From a virus, in IMG/VR virus record IMGVR_UViG_3300035698_008128, positions 1 to 35,842 of that record: a stretch of DNA of 35,842 nt; one strand, written 5' to 3'. How positions within the stretch are numbered: position 1 is the stretch's first letter; every line of letters starts with the position of its first letter. Positions 7,952-32,127 of the stretch are shown here, one piece after another. Under the pieces are notes generated by a model. It was not told the origin of the DNA and made no database searches. It was given only the letters and a program-made list of their open reading frames with translations. Made by a program: the position numbers and the translations under genes.

Positions 7952-10900
7952 ATGCCGCTCCCAGTAAAGAACACATGTACTCCGGCCAGCGCGTTTGGTG
8001 GATTCGAACAGACACTATTTTTAGGATGCAGTGTCGTATCGTTCACCATGAGCGGAGGGTGGAACGAACAAAAATCAGAGTTGACAGTACAACTTATAGA
8101 AGATGCGTGCCCAGGCACAAAAATCTACTATGATAGGAGTCTAGCAGAACAAGAATATAGTGGGGCGGACCCAGGCTTTATTGGAGATGCCAACAATATT
8201 ATAGGGGTCCCCGTCTACTTTAGGGTAGCTGACTTCGAGTTCTCCGGTATAATCCAAGAGTGGACTAAGGCAGATATACGAACGCTGAACGCCAACCTGC
8301 CTGTTAAAACCCTTAACGCTAACGCCAACCTGTATACTGTAAAGATTTCAGACCCAAGAGAAATCCTTGAGGGCTGCCAGGTCATCGTCAATGAGTATGC
8401 GGGCTTTACTGCGGGCCTGGACAACATAGTAAATGCCTTTGGCTTTCTAGAGGCGACCACCAATAATTGCCCGCCTATAACCCAGGGCGTTGACGGCACC
8501 ATCTTCGGAGCCCCTGCTGCGGGCTTTGGTAATGCCGATGTTGACTCCAACGGCATGTCTTGGACTAATATCTTGGGGTCGACCCGCGTTCTTCTGAGCG
8601 GCACCAGTACATATGGAGCCCTTAGTGGAATCTTCTCCGCTGGATATCTATCATTTAAGGGTGTCTCAAATACGGGTTATTCTGGAGTATCTGGTATAAC
8701 CGCCGGTATGGGCATAATGGACCAGGACTCCACTAGCGAAGCCCACTATGTTGTAGACCTATCCTCTTTGCCTAGCCTCCCCAACTATGTTCGATTTAAT
8801 GGTGTAGCTTTTTCTCTGCTTGACCTAATTTCCCAAGTTTGTGATATTGGGGGCTATGATTACTATGTGGAACTAATGCCTGTTGATTCAACTGGGGCAG
8901 TATGGACTAACACTATTGCTGATAGTCAGAATATTACAAAGTTCATTAAGGTTAGGACTGTAAATAGGGATTTACAACCCGCCTTTGGAGCTATCGAAGA
9001 GTTTATAAATATTACCAATGTGGCTGGGACAGGCACTGTCAATAACGACTTTGGTAAGGAACTCCGTAATGAAATGACCAACCAGTTAATTATTGGAGGA
9101 GCCAAGCAGAACGTATTTGATACAGACAATCTTACCTTCTTAGACCCAGAGGGAGATGGGGAGCCTTCCAATCCAGAGATGGACGATATGATTGTTCCCC
9201 ACTTTGGGTTAGATACTAGTGGCAACGCCATTATTCCCACTAAGGATACGGATGGTAACTGGGAGTTTGAGGCCGACGTAACGGCCCTGAATGTTCAACT
9301 GGGAGAATATGGACTTGCACTAGAGGTGAGCGCTGTTACTATCAATGAGAAGGAGCTTATTTGCGCTGGTAGTAGTAAGGAGGCGTGGCTATACTATTCT
9401 AAGAGGGCTAACACAGACATATTTCAGGAGTTTGGGGATTTTGAATCCATCTATGATTTTGAACTAATAACTGTCTTGGCAGACTTGGCTACTGATGGAG
9501 ATAAGGTTGCGCCTAGAGATGTACCTCGTACTGGGGGTTTGCTGAAACCTAATGATGAGGACGACGGAGCCCAGAAGATTACTGCTATACAGGCCCTCTA
9601 TGATTTTGTTAAGGGTTTTGCTGATGATTTCTATGGGACAAAATTTCAAGTTAGGATACCTTATACTTGTGGATACATTCCCACTAGTCAGGATGGAACT
9701 ATCGTTGGATGGGGCGGCAAAGTTACGAACAGCGAACTACCTAGTGATGGTGGATGGTCTGAAGAGACTCCCTTGTTAGGGCTGACTAATCCCGCTACTA
9801 GTACGGACTTCTTTAGGCATGAGGATGGTAGAATTCAGAATATTCTACGCTTCTCAGACCTTACTCAATTAGGATTAGCCGACCTAAACGCCGATGAATT
9901 TATTTCAACGACTTCTGGCGAAATTCTATGGATGAAGGCGGCTAATGATGCCGACTACGTTTATATAGATAAGTCTAACCTAACCTTCCCTAGAATTGTC
10001 TTAAGTATTGGTACGGCTATTGATGAGTCGGAAGACGAGGGTACTCTTCCTCCTATCATAGGTGTTCCAGAAGTATATCAAGCTGCTGACCCTGATGCAA
10101 CAAAGACAGCCAACATTAAGAAACTGTATGATGGGGTTGGGGCCAGCACACTATACAAATATTATGGCAAAAAGAAGAAGATGCCTAATGGGGCAGCAGT
10201 ATGTATTAAGAGCACGGCGTTGAAATATGGGCCGTATGGTAGCTCTACTGTCGCAGGAAAGGCCGCAGTCAAGCAGGACGAAGGGTTAGTGCCCTGGGAG
10301 TACGGAAGCTATGCCAACATGAACGCTGCTGGTGCGGCATTGGCTGCTGAGGGTATCACCTATATGCAGGTTGGAGAGAGGGGCTCTTTGACGGTGCCAG
10401 GATATCCAACGGCCCCTTTGGGCTCAGAACTATTGTCCGCGAGCGCAACAAATAGCTTTGCTGGAAATGGACCCTTCTATGGGGGCGGAACGAACCTGTT
10501 CGAGAATAGAAGCGTTACCGTTTCCGTCACGGGCCCCGGTCAATATGTTAGCACAACTATGCCCTTGTGGGTTGGAACCTATGGTCCAAATATTACGGGC
10601 CTCACTACCAATGTTGAGGTTGGAGGTATTCAGACTACCTATACGATGAGGACTTACACTCCGAAGTTTGGTAGGTTTGCAAAGTATAATTCTGAGAGAC
10701 TAAAGCAGGTTGGCCAAAACAATATGAGGGAGGCTAAAGCTCTCCGAACATTTGCCGCCCAAAGTATTAGGGCTAATAATGTCAGACTGAAAGATAAGCG
10801 TCTAAAGAATAAGAAGGATGAGTTGGCTGGAGATGAAGCTCCTCGAACACCCCATGAAATCCTAATCGGAGAATTGAACCCTTGGAATAGTGGGGCCTTC

Positions 10901-13423
10901 AAGAGACCTATCATAACTAGTAATCCCATCTTTGAGATTGGGGCTGAACTCGCTACGTATTCCACCAAAGCCTTTATGTCTTGGGACGGCTTCTTCATGC
11001 CAGTCTCTATGGATGGTGATGGTGGCCTACCTAGATATACTAACCCTTTGTCTGGATGTTCTAGTGGAAATTCTAGAGGAGCTATTCCTCCCCTATTCAA
11101 AAACGGAGAGGCGACCCAGGGCGGAGACCTACAATACCACTTAGGTATAGATATTAACTATCTGAACCCCTTCTCTAATCCTAGTGGATTAAATAGGAGC
11201 AATGTAAGTACAGAGAGAAGCGACACCCCTAATGTGGGACACCACATAGAAATTATAGGTAGAAAGGGTGACGCTAGCGGTAACCCTCCTGCCTCTAGCA
11301 TAGTTATGCCTACTCAGGGTTATGTAGATAATCTTGATAGTTCTATGAGTGACTATAAGGATGACTATAGGCCCTTTGCTGTTAGGGGGCCCATCATACT
11401 TCAGGGATGGGGCTATGATACTAACGGGGTGCCTATTCCTAATAAGGTGGACACGGAGGCTAGCGCTTCTGGTGGGGATTTTGAGGAGAGTGGAACACAA
11501 TGTAAATTTATGGACGACTGGTTGAGGAAGCCCCATAGCTGGCCAGTTGGCCCCATCGACTTAAGATGGGACAGACAGAGAGCTGTGTGGGTCTCCCCTC
11601 CTGCCTATACCACTGTTTGTGGAAGGTTGACGGAAGACCTGTGCCCTGGTGGTTCTGCCTTGGCCAACCTGGTTACAGACTCCCCCTTGTATGATTGTGA
11701 TGGTGCGACTTTTAGTGGGGAGTTTTATATTCACGACTGTCTAAGTGGGCTATTTCTACAGTCTGGAGAAATGGTCACTGCGGAATATGATACATATTCC
11801 TGCAAATATGTCACCGTCAATCAGCCCAGGACTAAGGTTAGGCCAGTACAGATAGACTCATGGATGCCCTATAATGGCACGGGATTAGGAGTGTCCTGCA
11901 CATGGAATGGCAGTAGCTATGCTCCCCAAACAGAGCAGTTCTCTCTATATCCTGGCCTATTGACAGAACATGGCCCCTTTCAGTCTGGTTGGAAGGGTAT
12001 GGCCGTAGACCTTATAGTTCCTATCGGTACGGAACCAGCAGGCCACGTTGGTTGCTCTGGGGTTCTAACGACCCTTATCAATGCTAATAAGAAGCATGAG
12101 TTTATCGAGTTCTGTACTAATGGAGTGTGGGGACAAGCCTCGTTTTCTGTTGCTGGAAACGCAAACATTTCAGCTAACGCAACCGTAAGTCATGCCTGGG
12201 ATGGCGTTGGCAATGAGCAAGATAATCATGTTGTTCAACTACCATCACACCTATCTACGGGATGCTTTCCTACTGGTCTGTGTGGAGTAGCTATATTAGA
12301 TGAAGTTGCTACATCATCAGTACAAGCAAGTAACCCAGCATATTGCGACAGATGGATATACAACATAGTAGACACCAACCAAATGTTAAGGGTGGTCAAC
12401 TCAGGATGTGGCGAGCAGGGTGGTTACTCATCACAATCACCTACTGGGACAGGGATAGCAGCAGAGATAGTTTTTGGGACTGGCCTTCAAATAATCCCTA
12501 ATCCAGACGAACCAAACCAGTGTAAATATGTTTTGAATACTACCCATAGTGTCGCAGATAGTGATAGTTGTGTAGATTTTGAGACCGCTGGCAGGCTTGT
12601 GGGAGATAATGTTTTTGATGTCCTGAATTTCGGGGCTGGAACTATGGTCCAAAAAGATGTTGATGCTGATGGACCCTGTAGTATGACTATTAACGCAGGT
12701 ATAAAGGTTGATGAGGTAAATGAGTGCGTACTAACTCAAGAAAGTCTGACTGCGTCTACCTATGATAGACTAGTAAACAAGATTATTTGGAATAGGGGTA
12801 TTAAGGCCGGTAACGTTTCTCAAGACATCTGTTCCATTAGCGTTGGGGCTGGCCTTTCTGTTAGTGGGGCCGACACCTGTCATACGGAATTTACAACCGG
12901 GGAAATATCTACCAGTTCACTTTTAGTAGGATTAATAGCCACTAAAGGTATTGGGGTTAAGATTAACAGTGCTGATGACTGTGTCTTTGACATAGGTCTA
13001 GACCTTAATGTGCGCTTTGATAATGGTGAAAGTCTATATGAGGCAGTCAACACCATCCACTTCTCAGAAACCTTCAGGGGTACTCCGGGCACCTGTGGAA
13101 TCATAGAGGTAGACATCTGTGTTGGTAACGGCCTATTAATACGTGATGATGGCTGTATAGAAATAGACCCTGCGATAGTATCTACACTAGGATTTCAAGA
13201 TGGGGAGGGCCCCTCATTTAGTCCTTCTAGTAGGGCCATAACTCCAGACATACACTTTACATCTGGACTACTAGCCAACTATGATGACCCCAGCAATATT
13301 GAGGTTGGTCTCCCAATCTTATTAGAGGCCGGAACACTAGACCTTAAACTAAACTCTGGTGGAGAAGGTGCCATCCTAGACTTCGATAAGTATGGGCGAA
13401 TACAGTCTATAAAGACCTACTAG
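7952..13423 (+). CDS. Large tail hub / fibre-like virion protein, 1823 aa
   Basis: A very long, beta-rich, Gly/Ser/Asn-rich protein with many cysteines. The first ~200 residues resemble phage baseplate hub proteins: FTMSGGWNEQ near residue 33, FSGIIQEWTKAD near 97 and SDPREILEGC near 133. About residues 905-965 form a highly charged helical linker. The middle (about 1065-1210) contains GPIILQGWGYDTNG and WPVGPIDLRWDRQR, a style I associate with structural proteins of environmental phages. Residues about 1504-1743 carry five Cys-containing beta repeats, and the chain ends in a charged sequence, YGRIQSIKTY. Hub at the N-terminus and fibre or receptor-contact region at the C-terminus is inference. 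A purine-rich AGGA stretch precedes the ATG. It is the last gene of the plus-strand unit before the terminator. Confidence 0.65.
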   Translation: MPLPVKNTCTPASAFGGFEQTLFLGCSVVSFTMSGGWNEQKSELTVQLIEDACPGTKIYYDRSLAEQEYSGADPGFIGDANNIIGVPVYFRVADFEFSGIIQEWTKADIRTLNANLPVKTLNANANLYTVKISDPREILEGCQVIVNEYAGFTAGLDNIVNAFGFLEATTNNCPPITQGVDGTIFGAPAAGFGNADVDSNGMSWTNILGSTRVLLSGTSTYGALSGIFSAGYLSFKGVSNTGYSGVSGITAGMGIMDQDSTSEAHYVVDLSSLPSLPNYVRFNGVAFSLLDLISQVCDIGGYDYYVELMPVDSTGAVWTNTIADSQNITKFIKVRTVNRDLQPAFGAIEEFINITNVAGTGTVNNDFGKELRNEMTNQLIIGGAKQNVFDTDNLTFLDPEGDGEPSNPEMDDMIVPHFGLDTSGNAIIPTKDTDGNWEFEADVTALNVQLGEYGLALEVSAVTINEKELICAGSSKEAWLYYSKRANTDIFQEFGDFESIYDFELITVLADLATDGDKVAPRDVPRTGGLLKPNDEDDGAQKITAIQALYDFVKGFADDFYGTKFQVRIPYTCGYIPTSQDGTIVGWGGKVTNSELPSDGGWSEETPLLGLTNPATSTDFFRHEDGRIQNILRFSDLTQLGLADLNADEFISTTSGEILWMKAANDADYVYIDKSNLTFPRIVLSIGTAIDESEDEGTLPPIIGVPEVYQAADPDATKTANIKKLYDGVGASTLYKYYGKKKKMPNGAAVCIKSTALKYGPYGSSTVAGKAAVKQDEGLVPWEYGSYANMNAAGAALAAEGITYMQVGERGSLTVPGYPTAPLGSELLSASATNSFAGNGPFYGGGTNLFENRSVTVSVTGPGQYVSTTMPLWVGTYGPNITGLTTNVEVGGIQTTYTMRTYTPKFGRFAKYNSERLKQVGQNNMREAKALRTFAAQSIRANNVRLKDKRLKNKKDELAGDEAPRTPHEILIGELNPWNSGAFKRPIITSNPIFEIGAELATYSTKAFMSWDGFFMPVSMDGDGGLPRYTNPLSGCSSGNSRGAIPPLFKNGEATQGGDLQYHLGIDINYLNPFSNPSGLNRSNVSTERSDTPNVGHHIEIIGRKGDASGNPPASSIVMPTQGYVDNLDSSMSDYKDDYRPFAVRGPIILQGWGYDTNGVPIPNKVDTEASASGGDFEESGTQCKFMDDWLRKPHSWPVGPIDLRWDRQRAVWVSPPAYTTVCGRLTEDLCPGGSALANLVTDSPLYDCDGATFSGEFYIHDCLSGLFLQSGEMVTAEYDTYSCKYVTVNQPRTKVRPVQIDSWMPYNGTGLGVSCTWNGSSYAPQTEQFSLYPGLLTEHGPFQSGWKGMAVDLIVPIGTEPAGHVGCSGVLTTLINANKKHEFIEFCTNGVWGQASFSVAGNANISANATVSHAWDGVGNEQDNHVVQLPSHLSTGCFPTGLCGVAILDEVATSSVQASNPAYCDRWIYNIVDTNQMLRVVNSGCGEQGGYSSQSPTGTGIAAEIVFGTGLQIIPNPDEPNQCKYVLNTTHSVADSDSCVDFETAGRLVGDNVFDVLNFGAGTMVQKDVDADGPCSMTINAGIKVDEVNECVLTQESLTASTYDRLVNKIIWNRGIKAGNVSQDICSISVGAGLSVSGADTCHTEFTTGEISTSSLLVGLIATKGIGVKINSADDCVFDIGLDLNVRFDNGESLYEAVNTIHFSETFRGTPGTCGIIEVDICVGNGLLIRDDGCIEIDPAIVSTLGFQDGEGPSFSPSSRAITPDIHFTSGLLANYDDPSNIEVGLPILLEAGTLDLKLNSGGEGAILDFDKYGRIQSIKTY
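12461..13180 (+). repeat. Five Cys-containing beta repeats near C-terminus of the large tail protein
   Basis: Protein-level repeats begin near nt 12470, 12630, 12790, 12940 and 13115, with a period of about 50-60 residues. Each has a hydrophobic-G-x-G/I turn followed by a Cys and an alternating beta strand: GTGLQI..QCKYVLN, GAGTMV..PCSMTIN, NRGIKA..ICSISVG, TKGIGV..DCVFDIG and GNGLLIRDDGCIEID. The pattern fits a beta-solenoid or fibre shaft. Confidence 0.6.
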
Positions 13424-23852: not shown

Positions 23853-26729
23853 CTAGATTTGCCATACCTTATTTACAACAAAACTATCCTTTTCTTTACC
23901 TCTTTCTCCACCTAGAATTAGGGTGGCCCCCACATAGATTCTGTCTAGGTTCTCAGACCACGACGCAGGAAACACCACACAGGAATCTACTAGCCCAGAA
24001 TTATCACTAATAGTTAAGAAGGCCATAGACTGACCAGGATTCTTTCCCTTTTTAGTCTTGACCTCTTTGATTGCGTCTACTTTAGCCGCTATCAGAATGC
24101 CATCTTTTCTACTGGCGTTCCCTTTGAATTCAGCACAGGTAGTATTGGCTGCTCCAATATCGCATGAGTCCACAACCGCATAAGTAATGGGGATTCCTAG
24201 TAAGGACTCTTCGACGGAGGCAATCCAAGCGGGAGTATCCTTTAGGGAGTGGGGCGGATTATCAATAAGGTTGAGGGAGCTTTCGACCTTGGCATGTCTA
24301 TTCTTATTTGATGTTCCACCGGCACGCCCCACAGGAGAAGACAAAATCATGTCAAGCAGAAAAGAAAGTGTGACATTATGGAGGGCCCTTTCTTTATAGG
24401 TCTTTGCTACCCAGTCTTGCTCTCTCTTGGAGAGAGTTAGGAAGCTCTCAAAGTCGAAGAGCATATACTGTCTTGATAGGTTAAACCAGTCCAGGGCTCC
24501 TGCCTTAATGAGGGCGGCGATAGCAGTCTTATTGATGTTGGGGGCCAGGAAGACGAGGAAGTCAGACCATGACCAATCGCTTAGGGCTTTTCCACAGGCT
24601 TCCTCGGCAAGGGGAATCTCTTTAAGTAGTTTTACTAGTACGGATGCTCCCACCCCTTTAATATCTACCAGGCCGAAATACACCTTACGATTAATGAGGG
24701 AGAAGTGGGAGTTTAACTTTCTAATGTCTGGGGCGAAAACATAGATACCCATTGACTTAGCGTTATTGACCAACTCCATTACTTCTTCATGGGGCTTAAT
24801 CTTTTCTCCAGAATAATATAAGTAGGAGGTAAAGAAGGCCCTGGGGAAATGGGCTTTGACATACGCAGATAGATAGCTGTTGTTAGCATAACTAACGGCG
24901 TGGGCCTTATTGAACCCATATCTCTGTGACTTTCTAATCCATTCGAAAATCTCTGTTGCTACATCCTTATTCACAATGCCCATCTTGTCACAGCCTGCCA
25001 TGAAGGTGGCTGCAACTTTGCTCATAACATCGGCCTTCTTTTTACCGATAGCTTCTCTAACTACGTCTGCCTCCTGTAGGGAGAAACCGGCAATGTCTCT
25101 AGCTATCTGCATAGCTTGCTCTTGATAGCAATTCTTGACCACTATACCATTAGCTATCACATTATGGTTACTTCTGATACTGACGCTATAGAACTGCTCC
25201 TCCTTATCTGTCTCCGTAATAGATTTAATCTTCATCCACTTAACGTCCCCAAACTTCAAACCTACCCTTTCTGCCATTCTTTGACCGCAAAATCCGCTGG
25301 GCTGGTCTAGAGACCCAATACTAAATGGTCGAGGATACTTAAAGTAACTACGAATAGAAGAGTGGCTGGTCAATATAGCACTTTTTACTTTTGAGCATAA
25401 GTATGTGCCGTAGTTACTATCGTCCTGTAGTCCGCCCTTACCGGCCCAAGACTTGAGCTGTAGGTAGGGTCCAATAAGGTTGACAAATTTCTTAGTATTT
25501 TTTACATGAACATGGGTATTATTAGGGTCGATATAAGTTACGATGCCATCAATAGACAGTAATTTACGGACACCATTAATCACCGCTGGATTGGCAGAAC
25601 AGTAGTGTATTGTGCAGCTATCTCCCTGCGAGGCTTTGCTGATATGGCCATCACTATCCAATAATCCTGCGAGAAACGCCCGTCTATTTTTGTCCGATGT
25701 GATAAACACGAATGGAGGAATAACCTTGTTTAACTTAGTCTTATCTAAACCTAAACTTTCTATCCATAGACGAAACTTCGTCTTTCTATTTCCGGTCCCA
25801 AGCATTTTCCAGTTTGCTAAGTCTGGATGATGAATGCCTATGTAGGTACAAGTCCCATGCACATAAGGGTTCAACCTCAAATTAGAATTTTTCTGTAGCC
25901 AAGCCAGCATAACTTGCTGATGTTCTTCACTTCCAGTCGCGAGCGACTCTCCAGCACACCCGTCCCCCACCAACTGTCCGATAAAATAAGCGGAGTCTAC
26001 ATAACTTGTGATAAATTCGTTAGAGAAACCCTGTGCGCACTTCTTATGATTAAATTGACGGTATGGAATAGCTACTAAGTGGTTATTGCTATATAGATGT
26101 TGAGCTTCTACCCATCCCTCATTAGTAAAGACTTTATGGTCTTTGGTAACTATGACCGAGAACCCATTCGCCAACCTTATTTTTAACCCTTTTTCTTTTC
26201 GCGTAGGAATAACCCTGTCGCAAGTGTCATTTTGAAGCACACACAAGGTCTGTTCGTTTAAGGACTGGGTTCGGTCGCCCTGAACTAGATTCTTTAGCTG
26301 TTTCTCGGAACCGTCCGACATAGATATAAATGAGTCTTCATGGATACACATCTCTCCATATGTTTCGCTCAAAATATGCTCTAGGGCTGGATGAAAATAG
26401 TCAGCAGGCTCAGACCCGTTTTTTCTGTCAATGTAGTGTTGAGTAACAGTTTTTCCATCTCGTACACTCTCTAGACAGCCCGGTCTAATAATACTTAACA
26501 GTGCAGATAGCTGTTCGATACTAGTAGGCTTCAACTGTTTAGCCAACACTTGACCTAACCTGGATTCTAACTGAAATACCCCCTTGGTGTTGCCAGAGCC
26601 AATCAGGTCCCAGGTCGCCTGACAATCCAAGGGGAGATTATCAATGTCAGGGTCGAGGCTAATCTTGATATCTTCCCCGCTGCCCGCGCAGGGAAACTTA
26701 CAAAGGCAGTTTTTAAATTGATAGAACAT
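23853..26729 (-). CDS. dnaE: DNA polymerase III alpha, C-terminal half, interrupted by an intein
   Basis: Carries the fingers, beta/tau-binding and OB regions of a DnaE-type polymerase; palm and PHP are in the separate gene at 28064-29965. Numbered from the ATG at 26729 (958 residues): GVFQLESRLGQVLAKQLKP (about 50-68), LLSIIRPG, SETYGEM just before the intein (128-533), then CYQEQAMQIARDIAGF, REAIGKKKADVM, RYGFNKAHAVSYA, and a C-terminal OB-like part with AAKVDAIKEVKTKKGKNPGQ. After splicing the protein would be about 552 residues. The start at 26729 follows the exonuclease stop by 4 bases; an upstream GTG at 26771 would overlap that gene by 38 bases. To replicate DNA it must pair with the N-terminal half. 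Confidence 0.93.
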   Translation of the reverse strand: MFYQFKNCLCKFPCAGSGEDIKISLDPDIDNLPLDCQATWDLIGSGNTKGVFQLESRLGQVLAKQLKPTSIEQLSALLSIIRPGCLESVRDGKTVTQHYIDRKNGSEPADYFHPALEHILSETYGEMCIHEDSFISMSDGSEKQLKNLVQGDRTQSLNEQTLCVLQNDTCDRVIPTRKEKGLKIRLANGFSVIVTKDHKVFTNEGWVEAQHLYSNNHLVAIPYRQFNHKKCAQGFSNEFITSYVDSAYFIGQLVGDGCAGESLATGSEEHQQVMLAWLQKNSNLRLNPYVHGTCTYIGIHHPDLANWKMLGTGNRKTKFRLWIESLGLDKTKLNKVIPPFVFITSDKNRRAFLAGLLDSDGHISKASQGDSCTIHYCSANPAVINGVRKLLSIDGIVTYIDPNNTHVHVKNTKKFVNLIGPYLQLKSWAGKGGLQDDSNYGTYLCSKVKSAILTSHSSIRSYFKYPRPFSIGSLDQPSGFCGQRMAERVGLKFGDVKWMKIKSITETDKEEQFYSVSIRSNHNVIANGIVVKNCYQEQAMQIARDIAGFSLQEADVVREAIGKKKADVMSKVAATFMAGCDKMGIVNKDVATEIFEWIRKSQRYGFNKAHAVSYANNSYLSAYVKAHFPRAFFTSYLYYSGEKIKPHEEVMELVNNAKSMGIYVFAPDIRKLNSHFSLINRKVYFGLVDIKGVGASVLVKLLKEIPLAEEACGKALSDWSWSDFLVFLAPNINKTAIAALIKAGALDWFNLSRQYMLFDFESFLTLSKREQDWVAKTYKERALHNVTLSFLLDMILSSPVGRAGGTSNKNRHAKVESSLNLIDNPPHSLKDTPAWIASVEESLLGIPITYAVVDSCDIGAANTTCAEFKGNASRKDGILIAAKVDAIKEVKTKKGKNPGQSMAFLTISDNSGLVDSCVVFPASWSENLDRIYVGATLILGGERGKEKDSFVVNKVWQI
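25131..26348 (-). mobile_element. Class 1 intein with LAGLIDADG endonuclease, in polymerase C-half
   Basis: 406-residue in-frame insertion. Seen in intein numbering: Cys1 with HEDSFISMSDGSEKQL (block A), TKDH at 68-71 (block B), YFIGQLVGDGCA (121-132) and FLAGLLDSDGHI (225-236), the two LAGLIDADG helices with their acidic residues kept, FYSVSIRSNHNVIANGIVV (block F), final Asn406, and Cys as the first C-extein residue. The penultimate residue is Lys (KN) instead of the usual His. Removal joins ETYGEM to CYQEQAM, restoring the conserved motif. Boundaries checked at codon level. Confidence 0.93.
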
Positions 26730-26733
26730 AATC

Positions 26734-27435
26734 CTATTTCTTCTTAGACTTTTTGCCAATCTTACCTTCACTTACCAACCTTGAAGTTAACCATCTCTGG
26801 GTCTTCAACAGTTTGATAAGCATCTCACCTTCATCATAAACGTCTTTAAGGGCATCGTGAGCATTTTCCTCGCTTAGCCCTAACACTTTTCTCATCGTAT
26901 CCATCTTGTAGTTGGCAGGCTCCTTCTGGTCTTCGAACCACCACCATACGTGTCTCAACATATCAATGCGGTCTCTAGGATGGAAAATCTTCATTGTCCC
27001 ATCCTTCTCCACATCACCATATTGAAGGGCCAACCTCTTCGAGATAGTATCGTCAAAGTCCTCAATGTTATAGCCAGCCCTGATAGGGGCACTATACTTA
27101 GTCTGCCTGGCCTGCTTAGTGTGATACTGGGAGAGCCACTGAACAAACTTTCTCCAGACGCTTTCCTGGTCAGGGGCCGCCTTCCACCTTTCCAACACTT
27201 CGTCCACACTACATTTTTGTATCATGGAGTGCCACTCAATAGTACTCTGATTCCTCTTAAGGTAGTCGGCATCATCAATGTCGATGGGCCTCATATCAGA
27301 GTTAAATTCCGCTCCCACTACAAACTCTAGCTTTCTAGGGTCTATAATGACAGCAGCCAACTGTACTGGATTACAGGAGTTGGGGTTAATACCGTCCGTC
27401 TCCCAGTCATATACGCAAATCTTATTGAAATTCAT
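26734..27435 (-). CDS. DnaQ-like 3'-5' proofreading exonuclease (DEDDh)
   Basis: 233 residues. Exonuclease motifs: D10/E12 in VYDWETDG (ExoI), D126 or nearby acid in GYNIEDFDD (ExoII), H193 and D198 in NAHDALKDV (ExoIII), the DEDDh set. A basic tail (KIGKKSKKK) ends the chain. It is placed between the two halves of polymerase III alpha and overlaps GroES by one base, so it is probably the editing (epsilon-like) subunit of this polymerase. The domain is longer than minimal DnaQ because of an insertion at about 45-105. Confidence 0.9.
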   Translation of the reverse strand: MNFNKICVYDWETDGINPNSCNPVQLAAVIIDPRKLEFVVGAEFNSDMRPIDIDDADYLKRNQSTIEWHSMIQKCSVDEVLERWKAAPDQESVWRKFVQWLSQYHTKQARQTKYSAPIRAGYNIEDFDDTISKRLALQYGDVEKDGTMKIFHPRDRIDMLRHVWWWFEDQKEPANYKMDTMRKVLGLSEENAHDALKDVYDEGEMLIKLLKTQRWLTSRLVSEGKIGKKSKKK

Positions 27436-27689
27436 TATAGTACGGCAATCAGGTTAGAGACCTTAAGGACAAAATATTCTTTGTCTTCGTGAACGAAGGA
27501 GTCTCCGTCGAAGGGATTGAAGACTACAGTTTTATCTAGTAGATGTAGGTCCGCATCTGGCCCTACCGACATAATCGTGCCTCTATCAGGACTTTCCTTG
27601 TTTGGGATATAGAGTCCACCTTCTGACAGCTTCTCTTCTTCGATGATGGGTAGGATAAGTACCTTATCATATAGTACGCTAGGCGTCAT
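27435..27689 (-). CDS. groES: GroES-like co-chaperonin
   Basis: 84 residues. Cpn10 pattern: LYDKVLILPIIEEEKLSEGG (first strand, then the mobile loop start), LYIPNKESPDRGTIMSVGPD, LLDKTVVFNPFDGDSF and a C-terminal strand VLKVSNLIAVL. It would cap the host GroEL, as phage T4 gp31 does, to fold phage proteins. The start at 27689 is preceded by AAGGAG 6 bases away; upstream in-frame ATGs lie inside the previous gene. The overlap with that gene is 11 bases. It lies between the two polymerase halves. Confidence 0.9.
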   Translation of the reverse strand: MTPSVLYDKVLILPIIEEEKLSEGGLYIPNKESPDRGTIMSVGPDADLHLLDKTVVFNPFDGDSFVHEDKEYFVLKVSNLIAVL

Positions 27690-28062
27690 AATAGTCTCCT
27701 TGGTCTTCATCTTCACTCTCATCCTTAATTAGTCTAGCCCCTTGAATAGGGGGACTTATAGGCTTAGTCAAAATTTCGTCATCGTTCGATAGTCTGTCTG
27801 AGTCTCCCAAATCAAACTCATTACTATGGCCAGGCGGAGCTATTCCAGAGCATGGCATAACATTGGAACTATACTTATTATCCTCCCCTTTAAGATAGGA
27901 TTGAACTTCTACAGACCTCTCAAAGAAGGTTTCAGCCCCACTCTTCACAGCCTTAGCATTTATCTGGGGGCCCCACCGACGATGTATATTCTTAATCCTT
28001 GTATATAGTACATCACAATGCGAGAACATACCATCAATCATTATGTCTTCAAATATGGTCAT
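27679..28062 (-). CDS. Unknown small protein with acidic tail, 127 aa
   Basis: Not recognised. The first ~60 residues look folded and helical (TRIKNIHRRWGPQINAKAV, then ETFFERSVEVQSYL). The rest is low-complexity, rich in Asp/Ser/Glu/Pro and ending ESEDEDQGDYYDA, probably disordered. It begins one base after the stop of the polymerase N-half and overlaps groES by 11 bases. Reality is supported by packing and by the GGAG ahead of the ATG. Position suggests a replisome accessory, but there is no direct evidence. Confidence 0.7.
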   Translation of the reverse strand: MTIFEDIMIDGMFSHCDVLYTRIKNIHRRWGPQINAKAVKSGAETFFERSVEVQSYLKGEDNKYSSNVMPCSGIAPPGHSNEFDLGDSDRLSNDDEILTKPISPPIQGARLIKDESEDEDQGDYYDA

Positions 28063-28063
28063 C

Positions 28064-29965
28064 TTATTCTCCGTTAATTAATCTACCTTGTAAAATATCA
28101 CAAACGCCCATTACTTTATCTAAAAAATTTACGCCTAATAAATCAAACTTGGCCATACCTATACTTTCCAAGTCCGACATTTCTAATCCAGCAATCATAT
28201 TCTTAGACTTAGTATCCAACACCATAGGACACATCCCATTTAATGGAGATGGGGATATAATAATACCAGCAGCATGTTTGGATTGGGCAGCCTTTACCCC
28301 CTCTAACCTCATAGCTTGGGCGAACCTGGCAGCAAACGTCCCCTCTAAAGTTCCATCGTCCTTTAATGTCACCCACTCCTGAAATTTATCAGCCCTATTT
28401 TCCAAGGCCCATCTTAGAATGGAAGATTCCCCGGTGGCCTCCTTCATAGTCTGAAGCTCACCAGAAATTTTAGACTCTTCAGGAATATGCTCCGTCATCA
28501 AGTTCATAATCTCAAAGGGAACTCCACCATGAGCCCTCAACACATTCTTTAGGGCTGCACTACCTTTCATTGTCTGGAAAGTAATCATCTGGGAGACTTT
28601 ATCTCGCCCATACTTCTCCTTAATATATTCAATGATAGCCTCCCTTTTCATGGTAGGAATATCAATATCAATATCAGGCAAGGACACTCTATCCTTAGTA
28701 TTTCTACCGGCGTTATAAAATCTCTCAAACCACAACTTATATTTGACGGAATCAATCTTAGTGATGTCAGTCAGGTAAGACACCAGGCAACCAGCCGCAC
28801 TACCACGACCAGGCCCTACTAACCAGCCATTGCCCGTACAATACTTTACAATATCTTGAACAATAAGGAAGTAACCTGATAGGCCAGCGTCAGCAAACAC
28901 CTTCAACTCATGGTCAGCCTGAGCCCCATATAGGGCCTTATCTAGTCCCTTAGCTGCCACCTTCTTCTTAAGGCCCTCCCTACATAATTTTCTAAGATAG
29001 TCATCAGCACTAAGGCCATCGGGGCAATCAAAGTTGGGCAACATAGGATTGCGAGTAATGTCGTAAGATTCACAGGCAGCCGCCACCCTATTAGTATTGT
29101 CTAATTCTTCCTCCGTATAGCCATACTCTATCATCTCTTGATAGGAGGGAATGTGGAAGTTGTCCGACTTAAAAAAGGTGGATAGGTCCCTATTGCTCTC
29201 ACGAGCCTCTGAGAGCGTCGTATGGAGGTTCGAGCAGAGAAGAATCCTCTGGTCAGGGGCATCCTCTTTAGACGGGTAGTGGGCGTCTGGGGTAGCTATA
29301 CAGGGGATTCCTGTCAGCTTACTAATTTCCCTTATCCTGTCGGCCACTATAAGTTGAGCGGGCGTCTGCCTACCATTAAACCTCTGTACTTCTAAGAAGA
29401 AATTATCCTTCCCAAAGGTATCCCTCATCCATAGGGCCATCTTCTCAGCCCTTCTCTTCCAATCCGCCCTCACCTTGTCGCCCTCCAAGATTGAATCGGC
29501 GACATGGCTGCCAAGCTGACCACTAAAGACTATTACATTTTCATCTGCCAGACTTCCTATCTCTTCCAAAGAAAGTCGAGGCTTTTCATAAAAATTTTCA
29601 GGGGCGTTTGATACACTGGTAATCTGAATAAGTTTCTTCCACCCCTTTTGATTCTTAGAGAGCATCGGCAACTGTCTCAATACCTTATTGGCGGGCTCTT
29701 GAATAGAGGCACTCTCAACGCACACATGTAGTTCACAACCTAGAATGGGCTTTTTAGGGCGTTTGACAGGTTGCCCATCAACCTCAACCTCAAAGCCGTT
29801 AAGAGCATTACTAATAGATACGCTACCAGCTATGTTGCCATGGTCCATTATAGCACAGGAGTCCATTTCTAGTTCGTCAATTCGGGCAGCTATATCTTTT
29901 GGTTGTGATAGTCCCTGTAAAAGAGAATAGTGGGAGCGAACCTTAAGGGGAACGTAGTTTTTCAT
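28064..29965 (-). CDS. dnaE: DNA polymerase III alpha, N-terminal half (PHP and palm)
   Basis: 633 residues. PHP domain at the start: VRSHYSLLQG (about 9-18), AIMDHGNIAG (38-47), ATPDAHYPSKEDA (224-236); one His of the first motif is replaced, as in partly degenerate PHP domains. Palm: GPGRGSAAGCLVSYLTDIT (384-402), the acidic cluster LPDIDID (431-435), and the third catalytic Asp D608 in AKFDLLGV. The chain stops 25 residues after D608, right where the fingers domain should follow. Fingers and the rest are in the gene at 23853-26729, with three genes between. All catalytic Asps are therefore here and all fingers there. It starts directly after the MazG stop. Confidence 0.93.
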   Translation of the reverse strand: MKNYVPLKVRSHYSLLQGLSQPKDIAARIDELEMDSCAIMDHGNIAGSVSISNALNGFEVEVDGQPVKRPKKPILGCELHVCVESASIQEPANKVLRQLPMLSKNQKGWKKLIQITSVSNAPENFYEKPRLSLEEIGSLADENVIVFSGQLGSHVADSILEGDKVRADWKRRAEKMALWMRDTFGKDNFFLEVQRFNGRQTPAQLIVADRIREISKLTGIPCIATPDAHYPSKEDAPDQRILLCSNLHTTLSEARESNRDLSTFFKSDNFHIPSYQEMIEYGYTEEELDNTNRVAAACESYDITRNPMLPNFDCPDGLSADDYLRKLCREGLKKKVAAKGLDKALYGAQADHELKVFADAGLSGYFLIVQDIVKYCTGNGWLVGPGRGSAAGCLVSYLTDITKIDSVKYKLWFERFYNAGRNTKDRVSLPDIDIDIPTMKREAIIEYIKEKYGRDKVSQMITFQTMKGSAALKNVLRAHGGVPFEIMNLMTEHIPEESKISGELQTMKEATGESSILRWALENRADKFQEWVTLKDDGTLEGTFAARFAQAMRLEGVKAAQSKHAAGIIISPSPLNGMCPMVLDTKSKNMIAGLEMSDLESIGMAKFDLLGVNFLDKVMGVCDILQGRLINGE

Positions 29966-30300: not shown

Positions 30301-32127
30301 TTATTCCTTATTTGTATCCTCATCAACACTACCAGGGGCATGATAATGTCCAATAGTATGACCGGGAGCACTCATGTTTTTGATGACTGAATCCATACCT
30401 CTATGCTTTAACACATAGTCTACCTGTTCACACTTAGTCAGGCACTCGCCCTTCTTAGCTATGTGTCCAGTTCGCTTGGCTATAATAGGCAGCACATCAG
30501 TATTTTCAAATGTACTCTTGCCCTGGCTACAGAACTTGGTACACTTCCATGACTTCTTCTTATCTGGATGATTGGTCTTCTGGATTAACTCAAACTTCTT
30601 CCTTAGCATTTTTTCAGTTGCAATCAAATCTTCGGGTCCAAAGCATATGGTGAAAGGGCCCCCATCATTAATGTAGTAGATGGTAGCCATAATATTTTTA
30701 ACTTCTGGCCATAACCTATGAACTGCATAATAGTACATGCGAAGTTGAGGGTCTTTTTGCAGAGCCTTATGGTCCTTCACCTCTCCTGTAGCCCAGTTTA
30801 ATCTCTTTCCTGTGTTATGAGTAGGTATCAGGTGTTTGGTGCAAAGATAGGTGCTGGATGGACTATCAACCATAATACATTGGGTCTGTTGAGATTCTAC
30901 CTCTTCTATCTTGGTGACCATTCTCCTCATATGAATCTTATTAGGAGCTTTTACTTTTAAGTTATCGGGATGCCTACAAGATACGCTATTCTTGAGTAAG
31001 ATAGATTTATGTCCCAGAGACAACAATAGTTCATGGACACTATTCAAGAAATCCTGACCAGTATCTGATTGTACCAAAAAGGATAGACGCTTTTTAGGGC
31101 CCATCTTATGCCCACCAGTTTCCATTAGACCTTTAAGCACATCCAGTCTTTGTTTATGAGACCCTCTGAAATACATACTTGGAATAGGCAACTTAGTATT
31201 GTAGGCTATTTCCCCAGCCATATATGGAGGTATGGTAAATTCTTTATGTTCGCAATTCAACGGTTTTGCTATAGCAATCCTATCTTTCAACCTTAAATAT
31301 TTTATGGGGACCACTAATCCGTCTGTTAATTTCCATAAATGTTCATCATCGCAAACAACCGTAGTAAAATCATCAAAGGTAATCTTATAACAGGGCTTTA
31401 GTTTGACCTGAGATTTCCCTATAACCTTAGTCGGCTGACCATCATCATCAAATACCAAATCTCCCTCTTGAAGTTCGCCCATAGTAGACCAGCCAGACGG
31501 AGTAGGAATTGGAGCGTCGATAGGAAGGCCCTTCCAATCTAATATCTCCAAGGTATCCTCGTCTATCCTATTCACCTGGTCAATAGTACCTTTAAGAGAA
31601 AGGAATCCCTCCAGCCCATTCCCATAATCGTAGTGGGCCCAAGGCTCCTCAATCTCGAAGTCGAAGCTGGCTTCCGCCCTCACAATATCCTTCTTTCGAG
31701 GGTCGAACTCTCCCCCGTTGAGGTCTAAGGCTTTTAGTACCCAGGCATGACAATCTTTGTAGTCCTTAGGCTTCCACTTGTGGTGTGTCTTACGAGAAGT
31801 ATACCAGTCATACACCTTACGAATAATGTCGTCTACCTGCCCATCATCCAGAATGGTATCGTCTTGGATTTCCCACTCCATACCCATATCTTCTTCTACG
31901 ACAGTAAAAATACCGTTCTGATGGGCGACCTTAGCGTTAGCCAAGATTTCCAAAACCTTATGAACAATAGTCCCCTTGTCAGCGGCTAGCCCAGAAGCAC
32001 CCCTCCATCCCAACGTATATTCAATGAACCAGGACATAGGACACATATCATGGCCATTATAACTACTACTTCTAAAATAGGTTATCGGACACTTATGCTG
32101 TGCGCCCTCTTCATTTTCGAGTTCCAT
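30301..32127 (-). CDS. RecB/Cas4-type PD-(D/E)XK nuclease interrupted by an intein
   Basis: 608 residues before splicing, about 369 after. The RecB-type motifs are all present: H56 (GTIVHKVLE), D183 (KGTIDQV), D197 and K199 (EILDWK), then after the intein TGK and Q461/Y465 (PQLRMYYYA). C29 near the start and C529/C533 and C562/C566 near the end may hold an iron-sulphur cluster, as in AddB/Cas4 nucleases. It probably degrades or resects DNA in recombination or host takeover. The intein (residues 200-438) splits the catalytic DWKTG motif, so the enzyme would be inactive until splicing. The gene is packed between dNMP kinase and MazG. Confidence 0.9.
   Translation of the reverse strand: MELENEEGAQHKCPITYFRSSSYNGHDMCPMSWFIEYTLGWRGASGLAADKGTIVHKVLEILANAKVAHQNGIFTVVEEDMGMEWEIQDDTILDDGQVDDIIRKVYDWYTSRKTHHKWKPKDYKDCHAWVLKALDLNGGEFDPRKKDIVRAEASFDFEIEEPWAHYDYGNGLEGFLSLKGTIDQVNRIDEDTLEILDWKGLPIDAPIPTPSGWSTMGELQEGDLVFDDDGQPTKVIGKSQVKLKPCYKITFDDFTTVVCDDEHLWKLTDGLVVPIKYLRLKDRIAIAKPLNCEHKEFTIPPYMAGEIAYNTKLPIPSMYFRGSHKQRLDVLKGLMETGGHKMGPKKRLSFLVQSDTGQDFLNSVHELLLSLGHKSILLKNSVSCRHPDNLKVKAPNKIHMRRMVTKIEEVESQQTQCIMVDSPSSTYLCTKHLIPTHNTGKRLNWATGEVKDHKALQKDPQLRMYYYAVHRLWPEVKNIMATIYYINDGGPFTICFGPEDLIATEKMLRKKFELIQKTNHPDKKKSWKCTKFCSQGKSTFENTDVLPIIAKRTGHIAKKGECLTKCEQVDYVLKHRGMDSVIKNMSAPGHTIGHYHAPGSVDEDTNKE
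30814..31530 (-). mobile_element. Class 3 (WCT) intein with decayed homing endonuclease
   Basis: 239 residues from G200 to N438 of the nuclease. There is no Cys/Ser at position 1 (it is Gly). The class 3 triad is present: W66 in DDEHLWKL (block B), C218 in QCIMVDSPSS (block F) and Thr as the first C-extein residue after IPTHN. Block A reads IDAPIPTPSGWSTMGELQEG. Between B and F only one LAGLIDADG-like helix is left, VLKGLMETGGHK (131-142), with the key Asp changed to Gly, and the first motif is missing; this looks like a shrinking endonuclease. Boundaries checked at codon level. Confidence 0.88.

Follow-up and report, generated by a model that had tools for sequence, protein, structure and literature searches.

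DNA polymerase III alpha encoded as two genes with an exonuclease gene between them in a clade of phages

In our study, the alpha subunit of a DnaE-type DNA polymerase III (Pol III) was found to be encoded by two separate genes, alphaN and alphaC, in a viral DNA stretch of 35,842 nucleotides (the window; IMG/VR record IMGVR_UViG_3300035698_008128) and in its relatives. In Pol III, palm residues and nucleotide-binding finger residues together form the active site, and both are normally located on one chain. The arrangement very probably represents a permanently two-protein alpha, which would function in a non-covalent core of alphaN, epsilon, and alphaC produced from a coupled operon.

The Two Genes of the Alpha Subunit

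The alphaN gene was located at 28064–29965 on the minus strand and encoded the PHP, palm, and thumb of a DnaE-type Pol III alpha in 633 amino acids. The alphaC gene (23853–26729, minus strand) encoded the fingers, HhH, and OB of Pol III alpha; its open reading frame contained 958 amino acids, of which about 552 would be left once an intein is removed. An earlier sequence-only reading of the window had given the coordinates of both genes correctly. The alphaN protein matched the Pfam families PHP (E 4.9e-26) and DNA_pol3_alpha (E 7e-68, profile positions 1–260 of 260) and the DnaE chains of the PDB with E down to 1.4e-67, and its AF2 model retrieved Pol III alpha structures in Foldseek (E 4.6e-37, TMq 0.72). 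The alphaC protein matched the finger domain (E 2.4e-39), HHH_6, and DnaE of the PDB (E 1.7e-49), and its OB region was covered by the alignment to E. coli DnaE. The AF2 models were single chains built from shallow alignments (8–9 rows), and that of alphaC was poor (pLDDT 62.6), too uncertain to place the cysteine residues or the interface.

The first two catalytic aspartates, D431 and D433 (28667–28675, minus strand), corresponded to D401 and D403 of E. coli DnaE, and the third, D608 (28142–28144, minus strand), corresponded to D555. The alphaN ended 25 residues past D608, as the sequence-only reading had counted, and its statement that both halves keep their motifs was borne out by the aspartate triad in alphaN and by the finger and HHH_6 matches in alphaC. 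In the alignment to E. coli DnaE, alphaN stopped and alphaC resumed at residue ~581 with a gap of 0 and an overlap of 0, and the comparison with T. aquaticus DnaE agreed. Because the E. coli alignment contained neither gap nor overlap, the two proteins together amount, as judged from their sequences, to one DnaE polymerase core with nothing missing and nothing duplicated. The C-terminal domain that follows the OB in E. coli DnaE had no counterpart in alphaC. The PHP, palm/thumb, fingers, HhH, and OB followed the canonical DnaE order across the two open reading frames, according to Pfam and the E. coli alignment; the single polypeptide that defines a DnaE-type Pol III alpha was replaced by two, here and in 131 of 131 contigs. 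The break had been placed at a domain border by the sequence-only reading; it was close to the border, but not exactly on it, since it fell some 20 residues into the finger profile of Pfam, and the finger-profile match in the alphaC of 19 relatives began at profile position 12–22.

Genes Between the Halves

Three intact genes were found between the halves. The first encoded a small-domain protein of 127 amino acids with an acidic C-terminal tail (27679–28062, minus strand), for which the Pfam search gave no family. Most relatives contained an open reading frame of about 60 amino acids separating alphaN from epsilon, and an HMM of these small frames matched the window protein with E 5.1e-14 and 45.9 bits, which places it in the same family as a member with an acidic tail; in 77 of 111 contigs, the HMM detected the small domain in this interval. 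The second gene encoded GroES/Cpn10 (27435–27689, minus strand; PF00166, E 5.4e-12, 46.0 bits against a cut-off of 21.1). Its open reading frame opened at 27722, and a direct reading of the start region gave the ATG at 27689, after AAGGAG, as the likely start.

The third gene encoded an epsilon-like DEDDh exonuclease of 233 amino acids (26734–27435, minus strand), which matched RNase_T (E 2.3e-5) and PHROG 192, annotated as DNA polymerase exonuclease subunit (E 4.4e-17). The D10, E12, D128, H193, and D198 residues of its DxE, D, and HxxxxD motifs were invariant among 10 aligned relatives. The proposal that an editing subunit is encoded between the halves was confirmed, as the epsilon gene was always there, upstream of alphaC. 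This position supports the view that epsilon docks on the alphaN/alphaC core. The chaperonin, which had been proposed as part of the same design, was found only in the window among the 161 loci searched, and elsewhere the slot was occupied by other genes; its part in the design was not supported.

Short spacers or overlaps joined the genes in the window. The TAA stop codon of alphaN was located two bases ahead of the next ATG, with GGAG upstream of that ATG; the stop codon of GroES and the start codon of epsilon shared bases; and the ATG of alphaC was located four bases past the epsilon stop codon. In 103 of 110 relatives, alphaC started between −100 and +30 nucleotides from the epsilon stop codon. 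The insert between alphaN and epsilon ranged among the relatives from none to 6.1 kb of cargo, and the genes in the slot included, as identified by eye, uracil-DNA-glycosylase-like, dehydrogenase-like, and HNH-like genes. In one locus (L132:2201–8340), alphaN and epsilon were separated by about 6.1 kb of metabolic genes, among them an aldehyde dehydrogenase-like gene, as named by eye. In two loci (L133:5361–8986 and L172:6377–8953), the gap between epsilon and alphaC contained a ThyX-like gene and a pilin-like protein ('[33 protein letters not shown]') of a kind that is typical of Planctomycetes, which hints at planctomycete hosts.

Conservation of the Break Among Relatives

An initial search of IMG/VR with alphaN gave 14 loci at 44–57%, and all 12 loci that contained both halves shared the break, with epsilon in front of alphaC. 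In profile scans of IMG/VR, the best 80 of more than 550 and the best 80 of more than 490 relatives were kept; these best-scoring loci are the most query-like, and the tally describes the clade, not all phages. Both junction ends were present in 147 of 161 loci. They were in one frame in none of the 147, and in all 147 they were on one strand with epsilon between them. The 147 loci represented 131 distinct contigs. Of these, 111 differed in their alphaN ends, with 93 clusters at 90% and 21 clusters at 70%, and the alphaN identity went down to 40%. The order alphaN, epsilon, alphaC on one strand was found in 131 of 131 distinct contigs, and the fused form in 0. All three catalytic aspartates were kept in the 111 non-redundant N-halves, and the stop of alphaN was conserved, since it fell 22–28 residues past the KFD in 101 of 111.

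Because at least 131 related contigs share the arrangement, the split is, by sequence comparison, an old and stable design, neither the result of damage nor a fault of assembly. The probability that it arose from faulty assembly or sequencing, or from decay of the gene, is negligible: beyond the rarity of the arrangement in cultured phages nothing speaks for this, and the same break occurred in 131 contigs from many metagenomes, with open frames on both sides. The view of the sequence-only reading that alpha consists of two polypeptides was thus upheld, and its proposed search of related genomes found the break in every sampled distinct contig with both halves. The same locus was continuous in no close relative, and continuous DnaE was found only in distant phages.

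The trio was also present in five loci borne by metagenome-assembled genomes (MAGs) with the labels Chitinophagia, Lokiarchaeota (twice), SAR202, and Flavobacteriales, which are probably binned phage contigs. The phage collection contained no record resembling the window epsilon, and its best match to alphaN was 33.5% identical; from these two results, the clade seems to be uncultured.

Search for a Second Polymerase and the PHP Site

No full-length polymerase was found elsewhere in the window, a 35.8-kb fragment, where PF07733 occurred once. In each of 19 contigs of 119–244 kb, PF07733 was found once and PF17657 once. The PolA and PolB models gave no match in these 19 relatives and were positive in control genomes; all sampled large contigs were linear records without a completeness estimate, and a second polymerase could lie outside them.

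In DnaE, the PHP site may serve as a second site of proofreading. In the alphaN of the window (28064–29965, minus strand), five of the nine metal ligands of the PHP domain had been lost and substituted by K, R, Q, Q, and Q, whereas the nine ligands were kept in most relatives; their numbering is that of M. tuberculosis DnaE1. The loss fits a reliance on the separate exonuclease in the window. It also indicates some relaxation, as would be expected if the halves had parted ways, the phage being replicated by its host and the two proteins serving in separate repair or nuclease roles. Such a parting is very unlikely, because the catalytic aspartates were intact in 111 of 111 N-halves, the halves always co-occurred with epsilon and with the DnaB, primase, and SSB genes, and the 19 large relatives contained no other polymerase.

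Inteins and the Start of AlphaC

A complete LAGLIDADG intein of 406 amino acids, overlooked by the sequence-only reading, was found inside alphaC (25131–26348, minus strand; residues 142–547 of the open reading frame), with the boundaries SETYGEM^C and HN^CYQEQAM. It matched Intein_splicing (E 9.7e-18), LAGLIDADG_3, and Hom_end. At this site the relatives contained V/I/A/F-YQEQ, with no insert and with a residue other than cysteine at the position where the intein requires one. The earlier claim of an assembly without splicing holds for the junction, but not for alphaC itself, where the intein must splice in cis. Being in cis and 90-odd residues into the C-half, the intein does not explain the break.

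Two further intein observations were made. The C-half of one relative (L029, open reading frame 8612–11011) also contained an intein, but a different one, which had an HNH-like part and was inserted elsewhere in alphaC (RPG^CIAK...HN^CLEAM); the near-identical L030 represents the empty allele of this site. In the window, a RecB-like PD-(D/E)XK exonuclease (30301–32127, minus strand) contained an in-frame insert at residues 200–438 that was absent in relatives. Its flanks join at 199/439; the insert opens with a Gly, ends with HN before a Thr, and carries a W and a C where a class 3 intein (WCT) would have them, which makes it a candidate for this class.

The presence of an intein in the window alphaC, and the introns or homing genes that interrupt other phage polymerases, as in Bacillus phage KLEB27-3, where an HNH gene was located between two DnaE parts, would agree with a mature alpha of one chain, in which the halves are joined post-transcriptionally or post-translationally by a group I or II intron, a trans-splicing split intein, or ribosome bypass. 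This is extremely improbable. No intein motif was found at the end of alphaN or the start of alphaC in the window, as the sequence-only reading had claimed; no Rfam intron family was found in the window and five relatives, with nothing credible in 26400–28400 by the Rfam models; and the intervening DNA consisted of complete and varied genes with their own starts. Moreover, the start of alphaC was a conserved module, which was missing from the continuous DnaE sampled.

This module was a CxC at the N-terminus of alphaC (CLC in the window; 26700–26708, minus strand), followed by a third conserved cysteine in LDC, just before TWDL (26622–26624, minus strand). The CxC was present in 106 of 111 relatives, as CGC (103), CDC (2), or CSC (1), and the third cysteine, just ahead of the conserved TW, likewise in 106 of 111. 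In unsplit DnaE, the readable linkers from KFD to FQLES were mostly 56–70 residues long, with two outliers, and no CxC was found in the readable linkers of the sampled continuous DnaE. The cysteines of alphaC might, as a guess, form a metal site. The CxC and the third cysteine, possibly metal-binding, would support the new N-terminus of alphaC. The alphaC of L129, L153, and L159 had no CxC, though these are nested among CxC-bearing relatives, which suggests a loss. A clamp-binding motif in alphaC (QYMLF in the window) is not claimed, as the relatives do not keep it.

Origin of the Break

When 41 polymerases were placed in a tree, the split family formed one side of a branch with an SH-aLRT of 100 and a long stem. 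A scan for deeper relatives gave 77 new loci, of which 48 contained a continuous DnaE. Two further split polymerases, the DnaE of Rossellomorea phage phiT1 (gp20/gp18, PV767480) and that of the IMG/VR locus L185, resembled the window in the break at E. coli 582–583 and in a small gene between the halves, but differed in that they belonged to another branch of the tree, no epsilon was found, and the CxC module was absent. No relative was retrieved from the viral contigs with the phiT1 alphaN alone, and L185 was found by the wider profile scan. The tree that included the deeper loci was made with a quick method, and 18 of its 56 branches were weak; it placed phiT1 and L185 among continuous Bacillus-phage-like polymerases; their break at the same residue is therefore most likely independent of that in the window clade. 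L233 and L252 were also split at the same linker, without epsilon between the halves, and adjoined the continuous L232 in the tree. Their intervening genes were instead dUTPase- and thymidine-kinase-like or RNase H-like; L252 (7677–8804) represented a third intervening type, with an RNase H-like gene, a zinc-ribbon-like protein, and a CTC at the start of alphaC. The linker would thus be a repeated breaking point, broken at least twice and perhaps more often.

The inteins active in the alphaC gene (the LAGLIDADG intein of the window and the HNH-bearing intein of L029 at another site, empty in L030) would also suit an ancestral fractured gene, whose halves were once joined by a split intein; after the later loss of this intein, they would now assemble on their own. 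This concerns the origin of the split and not its present function, and it is rather unlikely, since intein halves were present at the break in no sampled relative and the independent splits of phiT1 and L185 use the same place without them.

Two candidates for a similar break were rejected. In Bacillus phage Jayan (L018, 4983–8390), two DnaE open reading frames, separated by one of 77 codons, were broken at E. coli ~400, within the catalytic DxD region; this different break could reflect either an intervening element or an error, possibly in a damaged or interrupted gene. In Bacteroides phage DAC19, an epsilon-like gene was followed by two genes whose sizes suited the halves, but whose translations were, by eye, TerL-like and NAD ligase-like and not DnaE.

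Discussion

In the proposed mechanism, alphaN, with the PHP, palm, thumb, and three aspartates, and alphaC, with the fingers, HhH, and OB, would be translated from one coupled operon, and the proofreading exonuclease encoded between them would join the core. The alphaC of the window would be made as a longer precursor that first excises its own intein. The three proteins would then most likely assemble with palm and fingers not covalently linked, giving a catalytically active two-chain alpha in which the broken linker at E. coli ~581 would be a subunit interface. More tentatively, epsilon and a cysteine clip at the start of alphaC, possibly with zinc, might hold the palm to the fingers, so that polymerization and proofreading of the three co-translated subunits assemble only as one unit. 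If this is true, the bacterial replicase would have been reorganised in a stable way, and this feature would unite a large phage clade that is so far uncultured.

A large phage clade keeps the palm and fingers on two proteins over a long divergence, with the catalytic aspartates unchanged. Such a natural split replicase would allow the palm-finger movement, the order of assembly, and the recruitment of epsilon to be studied part by part, and the question of why the same linker broke more than once becomes testable. In annotation pipelines, each half is likely to be mislabelled as a truncated or duplicate polymerase.

The bacterial Pol III alpha of the DnaE type (E. coli, T. aquaticus, and M. 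tuberculosis) has the same domain order and catalytic triad as the window, which differs in its two polypeptides, the new CxC start of the C-half, and the lack of a C-terminal domain past the OB. In cyanobacteria, DnaE is also encoded by two genes, dnaE-n and dnaE-c, whose products are ligated by a split intein located close to the FNKSH motif. In contrast, the break in the window was at E. coli ~581, no intein halves were found there, and the intein that was found was internal and whole.

Split polymerases are already known in phages. In most members of the OM43 phage group, family A polymerases are split into two open reading frames with a small one between them (PMC10580990); these are replicative and similar in layout, but belong to a different polymerase family. 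Our literature search, which covered few subscription journals or preprints, found no description of a PHP-, fingers-, and OB-bearing DnaE split here with epsilon between the halves. There is one precedent of a split phage Pol III alpha, a different and minimal enzyme: group 2.2 jumbo phages encode it as two proteins that are presumed to make up a single enzyme together, from distant genes and alongside a family B polymerase (PMC7824862). Like these phages, the window encodes the alpha as two proteins; unlike them, it keeps the PHP, HhH, and OB, its halves are in one operon with epsilon, its alpha was the sole polymerase found, and the 19 large relatives contained no PolB.
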